Assembly: GCA_945901765.1 (NCBI GenBank)
Contig: CAMDLO010000004.1
Location: forward strand, 1 to 63,378
Reading direction: 5' to 3'
Length of the DNA stretch: 63,378 nucleotides
DNA from: Cyanobium sp. NIES-981
GTDB taxonomy: Bacteria > Cyanobacteriota > Cyanobacteriia > PCC-6307 > Cyanobiaceae
The notes under the pieces were generated by a model. The model did no database searches and was not told where the DNA came from. It worked only from the letters and a program-made list of their open reading frames with translations. Below, in pieces: positions 18,361 through 22,506 of this stretch (the first letter of the stretch is position 1; each line of letters begins with the position of its first letter). The translations under genes and the position numbers were made by a program.

Positions 18361-19017
18361 ATGAGCAGACGCACCCGCCGCCCTCTGCGGCATCGTCCCT
18401 TCCAGCCCGCAGCAGCCAGGCCTGTGGTGGCAACCGTGCTGGCCCCGCTCTCCGGGCTGGTGGTGGCACTCAGCCTCGCCCTGCCGAGCCCGCTGCCGGT
18501 GCGGGCGGCCGACAATCTGGTGTTCGTGAGCGGCGCTTTCCGCCGCTCGATCGCCGTGAGCGACCTCGACGTTCTGGCCCGAACCGGTGTAGCCCGCGGA
18601 CTGCTCGTCGACGTGCTGCGCTTCAGCGGCCAGCAGCCGGCTGAGATGGCCAAATTGCTCAACCAGTCCATCAGCCTGCCGGTGACTCTGGTGAGCCGTC
18701 TGCTCAACACCCGGATCGGTGAGGCGTTGCTGCAGCGGCTCGCTCAGGTGGTGTTTCCCCTCAAGGCCCGCAACGTCGGTCTGCCTGCCCTGCGCTCGGC
18801 CGTGGTGATGGGACTGATCAACGGCAATGGATCCCTCTCGGCCGTGTCATTCCTGAAGGCGTATCCCGCCTCTGATCTGGAGGTGAACATCCCAGCCCTG
18901 ATGGCCCTGATCCAGAAAGCGAGCTCCGTGACGGAGCTGGTGCGCTTCTTTGCCGAATCCCCTCTGGATGGGCTGCGCAGTGACACCAACGACAAACCGG
19001 CCCGAGTCGAGCCGTAG
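18361..19017 (+). CDS. Stand-alone secreted DUF1400 protein
   Basis: 218-residue protein with an N-terminal signal peptide (hydrophobic stretch ending LPVRAADN, cleavage probably after an Ala). Then comes a DUF1400-like domain starting VFVSGAFRRSIAVSDLDVLARTG. The region resembles the N-terminal module of the hydrolase at 8,674-10,173, but there is no hydrolase domain here. That fits a lumen or periplasmic helper of unknown function. It lies 20 bases after the ABC1 kinase and runs up to thrC, so the three may be one transcript. Confidence 0.75.
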   Translation: MSRRTRRPLRHRPFQPAAARPVVATVLAPLSGLVVALSLALPSPLPVRAADNLVFVSGAFRRSIAVSDLDVLARTGVARGLLVDVLRFSGQQPAEMAKLLNQSISLPVTLVSRLLNTRIGEALLQRLAQVVFPLKARNVGLPALRSAVVMGLINGNGSLSAVSFLKAYPASDLEVNIPALMALIQKASSVTELVRFFAESPLDGLRSDTNDKPARVEP

Positions 19018-19042
19018 ATTCAGCACAGCCACCGCCTTCTCC

Positions 19043-20161
19043 TTGCCACTGCTCCAAACCCTGCGGCGCCTGGGCTTGGGGCCTGGCGGTAGCCGACCCA
19101 CCCTGCAGGACTGGCCCGGTCTGATCGAGGCCTATCGCCGCTGGCTGCCGGTCACTGATCGCACTCCGGTGATCACCCTGCGCGAGGGAGGCACCCCACT
19201 CATCCCCGCCAGGGCCATCGCCGAACGCATCGGTCGTGGCGTGAAGGTGTTCCTCAAATACGACGGCCTCAACCCCACCGGGTCCTTCAAGGACCGGGGT
19301 ATGACGATGGCGATCTCCAAGGCTCGTGAAGCGGGTTCGGAGGCCGTGATCTGCGCCAGTACCGGCAACACATCCGCCGCCGCCGCCGCCTACGCCCGTC
19401 GCGGCGGCATGCGGGCCTTTGTGCTGATCCCCGATGGCTATGTCGCCCAGGGCAAGCTGGCCCAGGCGCTGCTCTACGGCGCCGAAGTGCTGGCGATCCA
19501 GGGCAACTTCGACCGGGCCCTGGCGATCGTGCAGGAAGTGGCGGAGCGCTACCCGGTCACCCTGGTGAACTCGATCAACCCATTCCGGCTGCAGGGCCAG
19601 AAGACAGCGGCCTTCGAAGTGGTCGACGCCCTGGGAGAGGCCCCGGACTGGCTTTGCATCCCAGTGGGTAATGCGGGCAACATCAGTGCCTACTGGATGG
19701 GCTTCAACGAATACCGCGATGCCGGCCACTGCCGCAGGCTGCCCCGGATGATGGGATTCCAGGCCTCAGGCTCAGCGCCGATGGTGCTGGGACACACCGT
19801 GGAGCAGCCTGACACGATCGCCACCGCGATCCGCATCGGCAACCCCGTGAACCGGGACCGGGCCCTGCGGGTGCGCGAGCAGAGCGGCGGCGCCTTCACA
19901 GCCGTGAGCGATGCCGAGATCCTCGAGGCCTACAAGCTCCTGGGTAGCCAGGAGGGGGTGTTCTGTGAACCGGCGAGCGCCGCTTCCGTTGCGGGCCTGC
20001 TGCAGCGACGTGACGAGGTGCCGACCGGGGCAACGGTGGTCTGCGTGCTCACCGGCAACGGTCTGAAGGACCCCACCACGGCGATCGAACACAACGAAGC
20101 GCGGTTCCACACCGGTCTGGAGGCAGACACCAACCGGGTTGCCCAGGTGATGGGCTTCTGA
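19043..20161 (+). CDS. thrC: Threonine synthase
   Basis: PLP enzyme converting O-phosphohomoserine to threonine and phosphate. Motifs: FLKYDGLNPTGSFKDRGMT, where Lys in SFKDRG binds PLP, ICASTGNTSAAAAAYA, and the phosphate-binding VGNAGNISAYW. Typical cyanobacterial ThrC proteins begin about 15-25 residues before WPGLIEAY, so the TTG at 19043 (372 residues) is preferred. The open frame extends to 18950 (TTG) with an ATG at 18968 that would overlap the DUF1400 gene by 50 bases. A good terminator follows at 20190. It is the last gene before the dnaN region. Confidence 0.94.
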   Translation: MPLLQTLRRLGLGPGGSRPTLQDWPGLIEAYRRWLPVTDRTPVITLREGGTPLIPARAIAERIGRGVKVFLKYDGLNPTGSFKDRGMTMAISKAREAGSEAVICASTGNTSAAAAAYARRGGMRAFVLIPDGYVAQGKLAQALLYGAEVLAIQGNFDRALAIVQEVAERYPVTLVNSINPFRLQGQKTAAFEVVDALGEAPDWLCIPVGNAGNISAYWMGFNEYRDAGHCRRLPRMMGFQASGSAPMVLGHTVEQPDTIATAIRIGNPVNRDRALRVREQSGGAFTAVSDAEILEAYKLLGSQEGVFCEPASAASVAGLLQRRDEVPTGATVVCVLTGNGLKDPTTAIEHNEARFHTGLEADTNRVAQVMGF

Positions 20162-20189
20162 GCGCCATCCAGGTCTCCTGACTGGTGAG

Positions 20190-20215
20190 CAAAGCCCCCG
20201 ATGCGGGGCTTTTTT
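20190..20215 (+). terminator. Rho-independent terminator after thrC
   Basis: AAAGCCCC, loop GATGC, then GGGGCTTTTTT: a GC-rich stem extended by A/T pairs and followed by a T-run, 28 bases past the thrC stop. This is the clearest intrinsic terminator in the window. It separates thrC transcription from the dnaN upstream region. Confidence 0.85.
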
Positions 20216-20216
20216 G

Positions 20217-20614
20217 TTGGCCGCCCGCCGGAACCAATGCACAAAGCGTCTGCGGAAAGGGGCTGGAAAAACTGGTTTCAATCTGGGACTGGCAGGCGCG
20301 GATCAGGGACACCACAGCGCCCTCGCTCTCCCCAGGGGTGGGAATCAGGGGAAAAGGACCCGGTTTTCCCAACAGCGCTCTGGAATTCCTCAGGCCTGTG
20401 CCGACGACATGCCAGGTGCTGAACATGCTCTGGCTTGGTTTGCCCAGTTTCCCCAGGCTCTACGACTACGGTTCATCTTGTTTTTCCTTGGATCCATTCC
20501 TTTGAACAGTCGTTCCCGAAAGGACCGGAGAACCGGCGTTGCGGAATGGCCGTTGCTGTGGAAGCGTGGGAGGCCCGTCGGTCCCGGATCCATCCAGGCT
20601 CCGCTGCACACCCC
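20217..20614. other. Origin-like region upstream of dnaN with DnaA-box-like words
   Basis: About 400 bases with no convincing gene. Words one or two changes from the box TTTTCCACA used by cyanobacterial DnaA (or E. coli TTATCCACA) occur at 20262-20270 (reverse), 20347-20355 (reverse), 20364-20372, 20447-20455 and 20557-20565 (reverse, TGTGGAAGC); each matches 7 of 9 bases. The core TTTTCC occurs four times on either strand, where well under one is expected at this GC. In Synechococcus elongatus and, as I recall, picocyanobacteria, the chromosomal origin lies beside dnaN. Candidate oriC by position and motif, unproven. It also holds the dnaN promoter. Confidence 0.5.
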
Positions 20615-21769
20615 ATGAAGCTGGTCTGCTCCCAATCGGAACTCAGTGCCAGCCTGCAGCTGGTGAGCCGTGCGGTGGCCGCACGCCCCACCCATCCGGT
20701 GCTGGCGAATGTGCTGCTCACCGCCGATGCCGGCACGGGGCGCCTCAGCCTCACCGGATTCGATCTCAGCCTCGGCATTCAGACCAGCATCCCCGCCCAG
20801 GTGGAAGCCAGTGGTGCGATCACCCTGCCAGCCAGGCTGCTCGGCGAGATTGTGGCTCGCCTCGCCGCCGATACCCCGATCACCCTCGATTGTCCGGAGG
20901 GGGCCGAACAGCTGCAACTCACCAGCCTCTCCGGCAGCTACGAAATGCGTGGCATGCCGGCCGATGACTTCCCGGAGCTCCCCCTGGTCCAGACCGGCCA
21001 ACCGATCCGCCTGGAGGCCGATTCGCTGGTCAAGGGCCTGCGCGCCACCCTGTTCGCCAGCAGCAGCGACGAAGCCAAGCAGCTGCTCACCGGCGTGCAT
21101 CTTCAGCTGGATGCCAACGGTCTGGAGTGCGCTGCCACCGATGGCCATCGCTTGGCGGTGCTGCGCCTCCGCGAAGGAAACGGTCCTGCTTCTGATCCTG
21201 GCGCCGAACCGGTGGACCCGTTTGCCGTCACGGTGCCCGCCCGCTCCCTGCGGGAGCTTGAGCGGCTTCTCTCCGGTCGTCAGTCCCAGGACCCGCTCAG
21301 CCTGTTCTGCGACCGGGGCCAGGTGGTGTTCCTGTGGGCTGACCAGGTGCTCACCAGCCGCAGCCTTGACGGTGCCTATCCCAACTACGGCCAGCTGATC
21401 CCCGACAGCTTCAGCCGCTGCATCACCCTTGAGCGCCGCGCTCTGGTGGCAGCGCTCGAGCGGGTGGCCGTGCTCGCCGATCAGCACAACAACGTCGTCA
21501 AGCTCAGCACCGAAGCCGATGGCGGCCAGGTGCTGCTCCAGGCAGACGCCCAGGACGTGGGCCGGGGTTCGGAGTCGCTCGCTGCAGAGATCCAGGGGGA
21601 TCCGATTCAGATCGCCTTCAATGTGCGCTACCTGCTGGATGGGCTGAAAGCGATGGCTGCAGATCAGGTGGCCCTGCATTGCAATGCCCCCACCACACCT
21701 GCCGTGCTGCGCCCCCTTGATGAGGCCGCCTTCACCTACCTGGTGATGCCGGTGCAGGTCCGCGCCTGA
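20615..21769 (+). CDS. dnaN: DNA polymerase III beta sliding clamp
   Basis: Ring-shaped processivity clamp of the replicative polymerase. 384 residues beginning MKLVCSQSELSASLQLVSRAV, with three repeated clamp domains. Recognisable pieces include RPTHPVLANVLL, ATDGHRLAVLR, FVAAALERVAVLADQ-like helix (VAALERVAVLADQHN) and the C-terminal YLVMPVQVR. The ATG at 20615 matches the conserved N-terminus; the frame is open upstream to 20435 but the extra sequence is not clamp-like. It starts the gene block conserved near picocyanobacterial origins. Confidence 0.97.
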   Translation: MKLVCSQSELSASLQLVSRAVAARPTHPVLANVLLTADAGTGRLSLTGFDLSLGIQTSIPAQVEASGAITLPARLLGEIVARLAADTPITLDCPEGAEQLQLTSLSGSYEMRGMPADDFPELPLVQTGQPIRLEADSLVKGLRATLFASSSDEAKQLLTGVHLQLDANGLECAATDGHRLAVLRLREGNGPASDPGAEPVDPFAVTVPARSLRELERLLSGRQSQDPLSLFCDRGQVVFLWADQVLTSRSLDGAYPNYGQLIPDSFSRCITLERRALVAALERVAVLADQHNNVVKLSTEADGGQVLLQADAQDVGRGSESLAAEIQGDPIQIAFNVRYLLDGLKAMAADQVALHCNAPTTPAVLRPLDEAAFTYLVMPVQVRA

Positions 21770-21774
21770 CCGCC

Positions 21775-22506
21775 TTGGCTCTCCCCGATCAGCTGCTTCT
21801 CAGCGATCTGCTGAAGCGCCGTGTGCGCTGTGATCAGGGCCTCGAGCATGGCATTGGCCTGCAGGTGTGGATGCATCCGCCCGTGCACCGGGTGCTCGGT
21901 TGGTCCAGCCGCCCATCGATGTTCGGAGACCGGCGTCAGGTCTGGCGCCTGGATCAGCTCAGGGCCCTGCTCGAGCTTGAAGCGCTGGTGAAGGGAGAGC
22001 CCGCTGAAACCGATTCGCTCACCCTGGAGCGGTTGCCCACCCTGATCGATGCGGCGTTGCTGGATCGTGAGCAGCACCCGATCGGGTCGGTGGTGGATGC
22101 GGCGTTCGAATCCGCCACTGGCCGGATTCGCCACTATCTGGTGAGCCGCAGCGATCCGCGCCTGCCGGGCAGCAGCCGCTGGCGCCTTGCCCCGGATCGC
22201 ATCGTCGACCAGCAACCCGGTCGGGTGCTCACCGCCCTTGCCGGCCTCGACGACCTGCCGCTGGCCCGCGCCAGCGTGCGGCAGGAGTTCCTGCGCCGCT
22301 CACGGCGCTGGCGTGATCAGGTGCAGCAGGCGGGCGGGCGGTTTGAAACCCGCCTGGAGGGCTGGCTGGAAGAGCCTCCCTGGGATACCCCCGCTCCGGG
22401 CCCTGCGGACGCCGGTGAACCCTGGGACGAGCAGGACTGGCTCCAAGCGCAGGAGCATCCGCCGGCCAGAGACCGGGGCGGTCGCGATCAGGATCCCTGG
22501 GTCTGA
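21775..22506 (+). CDS. PRC-barrel-like protein
   Basis: 243-residue protein starting with TTG five bases after dnaN, so translation is probably coupled. The middle (about residues 80-150), with LIDAALLDREQHPIGSVVDAAF and IRHYLVSRSDPRLPGSSRW, looks like a PRC-barrel, a small beta-barrel seen in RimM and photosynthetic reaction-centre H subunits. The C-terminus is acidic and Pro/Gly-rich. A homologue follows dnaN in picocyanobacterial genomes (from memory). The role is unknown; link to replication or translation is only by neighbourhood. Confidence 0.7.
   Translation: MALPDQLLLSDLLKRRVRCDQGLEHGIGLQVWMHPPVHRVLGWSSRPSMFGDRRQVWRLDQLRALLELEALVKGEPAETDSLTLERLPTLIDAALLDREQHPIGSVVDAAFESATGRIRHYLVSRSDPRLPGSSRWRLAPDRIVDQQPGRVLTALAGLDDLPLARASVRQEFLRRSRRWRDQVQQAGGRFETRLEGWLEEPPWDTPAPGPADAGEPWDEQDWLQAQEHPPARDRGGRDQDPWV

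Follow-up and report, generated by a model that had tools for sequence, protein, structure and literature searches.

A putative chromosomal replication origin with worn DnaA boxes upstream of dnaN in a Cyanobium-like cyanobacterium

DnaA boxes are conserved across a wide range of bacteria. In cyanobacteria, the replication origins (oriCs) are usually found beside dnaN and carry TTTTCCACA boxes (PMC4674748, PMC6323995), which are reported as exact in Cyanothece ATCC 51142 and in 7/11 repeats of Synechococcus elongatus PCC 7942 (PMC4674748). The oriC of S. elongatus lies near dnaN and is bound by DnaA (PMC7198777). DoriC 10.0 already places cyanobacterial oriCs beside dnaN and, for Cyanobium gracile PCC 6307, ascribes a drift of the boxes to high GC content (PMC6323995). 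The criteria for a basal unwinding system, as in Bacillus subtilis and others, are a DnaA box with at most two mismatches and, within 16 bp of it, a run of three or more NAN triplets; trios that lack the adenine in the middle are suspected to exist. Box/trio systems were predicted in several species from which DnaA was purified, S. elongatus being one of them (PMC8287927).

Here we describe the gap before dnaN in a 129-contig draft genome of 2.46 Mb, which is very probably the start of chromosome replication in the source cyanobacterium. The window, i.e., the whole stretch of DNA analysed, is the start of contig C4 (bases 1 to 63,378) and has a GC content of 67%. From sequence comparison we consider it highly probable that positions 20162-20614 form the oriC, which DnaA would open via boxes, a trio-like element and a T-rich tract; its worn boxes are probably linked to a DnaA with Ser at position 435. 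The region resembles the DoriC origins of S. elongatus PCC 7942 and Cyanothece ATCC 51142 in being intergenic, upstream of dnaN and provided with TTTTCC-based boxes, but differs from them in that TTTTCCACA boxes occur there, whereas no word matching at 8/9 or 9/9 was found in 20217-20614, and in that the expected middle base is missing from two of the four triplets. It would be an origin of a catalogued kind in the expected place, whose signals are worn in a lineage-specific manner; an explanation of this wear other than base composition is proposed below.

Gene context and box-like words

Judged by Pfam domains, the gene order is thrC-dnaN-(unknown)-purL-purF-gyrase/topo IV A (Table 1). The preliminary description had likened this order to that at the start of picocyanobacterial genomes. 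Four single-contig relatives (G006, G022, G036 and G045) have a numbering that starts 173 bp before dnaN, several others one that starts from dnaA. A 243-aa open frame without Pfam match lies at 21775-22503, between dnaN and the purL-like gene. The stretch between the thrC terminator and dnaN had been taken to be free of genes, and so it appears: the four open frames across the gap yielded no Pfam match, and Rfam at gathering thresholds none in the whole window. The gap is an intergenic region next to dnaN, as is usual for a cyanobacterial oriC, and is present in 77 of 80 named loci, the other three being sequence pieces from which thrC is absent. The best named relatives by DnaN were Cyanobium and other cyanobacterial records of at most 85% identity. 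A public MAG contig titled Bifidobacterium breve (L067) encodes a cyanobacterial DnaN 75% identical to that of the window and is apparently a mislabelled record.

The gene dnaA is located on a contig (C30) different from that of dnaN in the source genome, and far from dnaN in the relatives G007 and G056 too. A position of the boxes beside dnaA instead was considered and rejected, the TTTTCCNCA word occurring in one of the 27 upstream regions examined (three more loci were too short).

Four TTTTCC cores are present in 20217-20614, at 20265(-), 20350(-), 20364(+) and 20482(+), as the preliminary description had stated; 2000 dinucleotide shuffles of the gap gave a mean of 0.52 (P 0.0015), and the whole window has a mean of 0.05 per 398 bp, with its maximum in the thrC-dnaN gap. 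The expectation of 0.1-0.2 that had been given falls between these two controls. Regarding words that match TTTTCCACA at 7/9, the reported enrichment was borne out (shuffles 1.41, P 0.001) but the reported count of five was not, since six were found, at 20251-, 20262-, 20347-, 20364+, 20447+ and 20557-. Boxes of the E. coli type, TTATCCACA, were considered as the signal of the gap and dropped, none being found at 7/9 or better in 20217-20614. The pattern TTTTCCNCA is absent from the whole window.

Table 1. Features of the proposed oriC and its flanks (positions in the window; conservation measured on an alignment of 26 gaps, word counts in the 25 aligned relatives; distances are to the dnaN start)
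Feature	Position	Strand	Basis
thrC (PALP-domain gene; name threonine synthase from the preliminary description)	18950..20161	+	Pfam; start codon uncertain
thrC-dnaN intergenic region, proposed oriC	20162..20614		word enrichment, skew in relatives, conservation
Terminator-like stem-loop after thrC	20191..20212	+	2 overlapping matches, shuffles 0.8
Box-like word TTTTCCAGC, about -353	20262..20270	-	conservation 0.83
Box-like word CTCTCCCCA, about -289	20326..20334	+	TTTTCCCCA in 10/25; conservation 0.90 on 20327-20335
Box-like word TTTTCCCCT, about -268	20347..20355	-	commonest word TTTTCCACC (8 of 25); conservation 0.85
Word TTTTCCCAA	20364..20372	+	conservation 0.75, position kept only partly
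Tandem pair, first box GTTTGCCCA	20438..20446	+	TTTTCCCCG in 10/25; conservation 0.88
Tandem pair, second box GTTTCCCCA	20447..20455	+	word varies, GTTTCCCCA in 3/25; conservation 0.82
4-bp spacer GGCT	20456..20459		sequence layout
Degenerate DnaA-trio-like element CTA-CGA-CTA-CGG	20460..20471	+	conservation 0.84
T-rich tract, candidate unwinding element	20472..20489	+	conservation 0.60, no better than rest of gap
Conserved block CGTTGCGGAATG	20537..20548	+	conservation 0.87
Box-like word GCTTCCACA	20557..20565	-	identical in 20/25; conservation 0.96
dnaN, DNA polymerase III beta subunit	20615..21769	+	Pfam; ATG at 20615

Skew, conservation and layout

Because a whole-chromosome skew is impossible on a draft of 129 contigs, two single-contig relatives were used. 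In G007, a genome of the same genus taken as circular and represented by 24 stretches (480 kb, continuous except for the last 296 bases), the cumulative GC skew reaches its minimum where the 100-120 kb stretch ends, and the cumulative T-A skew where the 80-100 kb stretch ends, with dnaN at 101,697; both skews change sign near dnaN, and the turn lies within about 20 kb. With 20 sampled stretches round the chromosome of G007, P was 0.02 for T-A and 0.29 (not significant) for GC, and when GC is taken by itself, 32 of the 160 origins tried divide the chromosome better than dnaN does. G056 showed a clear V over twenty stretches (P 0.0002 for both skews), and its sampled minimum, between 2.315 and 2.430 Mb, brackets dnaN at 2.324 Mb. 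A skew minimum elsewhere had been named in advance as evidence against an origin at this site, and neither relative provides it. The source genome presumably behaves like these two relatives; within the window alone, the cumulative GC skew has its minimum near 34 kb and not 20 kb, an observation that speaks against the site but is not decisive. We take the picocyanobacteria to belong among cyanobacterial clades C-G. A V-shaped skew is reported for most species of these clades (PMC7198777).

Conservation of the cores in relatives, likewise chosen beforehand as a test that could tell against the origin, was found throughout. Considering the last 420 bp of all 77 named gaps (L093 and L096 being two contigs of one MAG), TTTTCC cores occur in 77 of 77, with a mean of 3.75 versus 0.81 in shuffles, and at least one TTTTCCNCA in 54 of 77, with a total of 90 versus 3.4. 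Together with the skew in G007 and G056, the cores in every named gap support the preliminary proposal of a candidate origin upstream of dnaN. Among 76 gaps of 300-1000 bp (75 named ones and that of the window; L077 and L106 were left out as too long), the cores recur at similar distances from the dnaN start, for example -352(-), -288(+), -267(-) and -176(+) in one subgroup and -308(+), -287(-) and -189(+) in a second. The 7/9 words at 20262, 20347, 20447 and 20557 are at conserved positions, those at 20251 and 20364 less so. Seven window elements were 87% conserved in the 26-gap alignment versus 58% for the remaining gap; no other circular shift of the element set equalled 87% (P 0.0026, about 1 in 398), a test to be read with the caveat that three of the seven had been picked from the family consensus. 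With at least 500 bp examined, TTTTCCNCA was missing upstream of dnaN in 10/20 genomes of the family with a Ser-type DnaA (see below), 1/19 with a Thr-type DnaA and 5/20 genomes outside the family; because it is missing in part of every group, the dnaN-side TTTTCCNCA cluster is not universal.

The order in 20438-20489, i.e., tandem boxes, a 4-bp spacer, triplets and a T-rich tract, is that of the basal unwinding system, and the box 20447-20455, with two mismatches to TTTTCCACA, is within the limit given for it. The triplets differ, being CTA-CGA-CTA-CGG here versus repeated CTA there, with departures from the expected middle base in the second and fourth triplet. Beyond a 16-bp spacer there are six triplets that do fit the pattern (TTC-ATC-TTG-TTT-TTC-CTT), in low-complexity and poorly conserved sequence. 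The box-spacer-trio layout is shared with other cyanobacteria: four or more CTA-like triplets, in most cases CTACTACTACTA, come after a box in 16 of the 69 genomes compared (8/20 outside the family, 7/21 Thr-type, 1/7 with unread DnaA and 0/21 Ser-type). On this model, DnaA would first bind the upstream cluster of boxes (about -353, -289 and -268) and then the tandem boxes at 20438-20455, extend from these over the neighbouring trio-like element (20460-20471) and unwind the T-rich tract, where the helicase would be loaded and from which forks would depart bidirectionally.

DnaA residue 435 and the drift of the boxes

The DnaA of the source genome has the motif GGKDHSTV, as opposed to GGKDHTTV in others, according to an alignment to solved domain IV (3pvp and 8btg). 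We take the Ser/Thr column of GGKDH(S/T)TV to be E. coli Thr435, by our own count along the E. coli protein. Among the 90 DnaAs read, 41 have Ser, all from the Cyanobium-like group, and 49 have Thr. The family is divided (Ser 21/50, Thr 29/50), the genomes outside it have Thr (20/20), and the named relatives, 21 of which were picked mostly for gaps of lower GC, have Ser in 20 of the 20 read; the 50 family and 20 named DnaAs may overlap as sets. Position 435 is listed as a box-contacting residue, and T435M is defective in box binding (PMC7561715, PMC5742627). Ser at this position is a changed box-contacting residue, as expected of a DnaA with altered specificity.

The boxes differ along the same division. 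In the dnaN gaps, A stands at position 7 of TTTTCCNCA in 73 of the 84 words from 20 genomes that do not belong to the family (A73 C10 G1, with the G072 class included), in 19 of 37 words from 19 Thr-type family genomes and in 2 of 17 words from 20 Ser-type ones; G006, G036 and G045, with 173 bp upstream only, were left out of these counts, and seven family genomes lacking a readable DnaA also out of the Fisher tests. Two observations are new: Ser occurs at DnaA position 435 in the Cyanobium-like group, and A at position 7 has given way mostly to C, also where the gap has a GC content of 44-60%. The probable reason for the degenerate boxes is that the DnaA of this clade, with Ser at the position of E. 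coli Thr435, is less strict towards the 3' half of the box or reads it in another way.

The published reading in DoriC 10.0 is that base composition alone drives the drift, a GC-rich genome turning A/T in the box to G/C with DnaA preference unchanged, and we regard it as a serious contender, if short of an even chance. It is what was put forward for the boxes of C. gracile PCC 6307 (PMC6323995), a Cyanobium origin with GC-shifted boxes like the present one, and it would suit a window of 67% GC. G at position 7 is indeed commoner in the GC-richer named gaps, with 15 of 59 words at a GC of 0.56 or more against 1 of 31 in the others, and the Thr-type genomes G041 and G055 also have C at position 7 in the dnaN gap. 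The shift described here, however, coincides with Ser435 and holds at moderate GC: in the 20 named Ser-type genomes with gaps of 44-60% GC, position 7 was C28, A4, T2 and G1, and named gaps below 56% GC gave C25, A3, T2 and G1. Within the family, regions with a GC content of 52% or more had A in 9/42 Ser-type versus 13/19 Thr-type words (P 0.0011; P 0.026 within 52-66% GC), where sites are not independent and Ser represents one or two events, and in a logistic fit GC was almost without effect next to the Ser label.

A DnaA tree from which the Ser/Thr column had been removed (49 rows, without outside genomes) needs two label changes, although the label may have arisen only once; one gain with a reversal is indistinguishable from two gains because the branches near the split are weak. 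Co-evolution of the DnaA residue with the boxes is rated as likely and no higher, because the position-7 tests count sites as independent, the label changed one or two times on the tree and the Thr-type family is already intermediate.

Box arrays upstream of DUF2811 genes

Convergent pairs of the form TTTTCCNCA-N40-60-TGNGGAAAA occur in 24 of 99 genomes (backward control 1). The source genome has its convergent TTTTCCCCA pair upstream of a DUF2811 gene (G000:C30) and not in the thrC-dnaN gap; it had been considered as a second origin, which was dropped in view of this location, the genome's other two DUF2811 copies having single TTTTCCCCA words. Convergent box pairs with partly homologous flanks in G011, G009 and G008 (L300, L301 and L303) were unmatched to DUF2811 in the comparison made.

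DUF2811 (PF10929, a domain of unknown function) is present in 94 of the 99 relatives; among 14 control genomes, it was found in S. elongatus only. A full-text search for DUF2811 in the literature library used yielded no paper. Full listing of TTTTCCNCA matches gave 54 in G056, 70 in G035 and 18 in G010, and their words at most 150 bp apart formed nine groups, counted by eye. Six of these precede DUF2811 genes, two are at dnaN (G010 has no group there) and one is elsewhere. Three TTTTCCACA words in L297 (G035:C1:3690339-3690444) are neither at dnaN nor near DUF2811 among the matches listed. Arrays of four to six TTTTCCACA words were seen in the other cyanobacteria G083, G085 and G061 (L287, L306 and L307) beside a guaA-like gene, the name guaA being our assumption.

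Most of the DUF2811 genes examined have words of the type TTTTCC(A/C)CA, often in arrays, at about 200-640 bp upstream of the domain (related loci L309-L338 and L340-L378). All three copies of the source genome have such a word, i.e., G000:C30:4704-5210 (L304, L145), G000:C36:11208-11716 (L339) and G000:C32:10419-10898. Among the matches listed, TTTTCCNCA occurs in the 650 bp before the domain in 17 of 20 Ser-type regions (expected 0.17) and 15 of 20 Thr-type family regions (expected 0.8); outside the family it precedes the domain in 23 of 25 regions, often in arrays spaced 11 or 21-22 bp (the cut-off locus L329 was left out of 30 in the outside-family DUF2811/dnaA upstream-word counts). Position 7 of these words is A in 7 of 25 Ser-type versus 14 of 19 Thr-type words (P 0.0055, among the matches listed) and in 55 of 72 outside the family. 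The upstream words suggest control by DnaA, or its titration, at the DUF2811 genes. Tentatively, and with the odds rather against so broad a claim, the DnaA residue (Ser for Thr), the origin boxes and the DUF2811-upstream words may have moved together in the Cyanobium-like clade, from TTTTCCACA to TTTTCCCCA; the DUF2811 arrays across cyanobacteria would then act as partners of oriC, either controlled by DnaA or titrating it, and DUF2811 itself would be a new regulator with a link to replication.

Similar words before DUF2811 domains, for which regulation is the likelier role, speak for the reading that the gap serves chiefly as an extended promoter and leader of dnaN by which DnaA regulates this gene, with the origin elsewhere. 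Of all elements measured, the word at 20557-20565, close to the start codon, has the highest conservation, as that reading would have it; the skew minima at or around dnaN in G007 and G056 and the box-trio layout argue against it, as does, weakly, a search of 20100-20700 in which no sigma-70-like promoter was found, and we judge it very improbable. As a separate observation, CGTTGCGGAATG and CTGTGGAAGCGTGG (window 20537-20565) are strongly conserved directly 5' of dnaN. Replication from several sites without DnaA, as in Synechocystis 6803, the boxes being decaying relics, was hinted at in the preliminary description on account of their degeneracy and could appeal to the loss of DnaA dependence in other cyanobacteria (PMC7198777) and to G037, a family genome of 95% completeness in which a DnaA match was looked for and none found, but it is not favoured and has hardly any likelihood, because dnaA is an open 475-aa frame in the source genome, DnaA was matched in 71/72 near-complete and 20/21 named relatives, the TTTTCC core and box positions are conserved, and V-shaped skew is seen in G056 as in most clade C-G species.

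The apparent joint shift of Ser435 and the boxes puts the published explanation by base composition in question. A clade with an apparent joint shift of a specificity residue and its boxes would constitute a small natural experiment in the co-evolution of initiator and origin. The DUF2811 arrays, in turn, may offer a concrete candidate for a role of DnaA besides starting replication, a point left open in PMC7198777.
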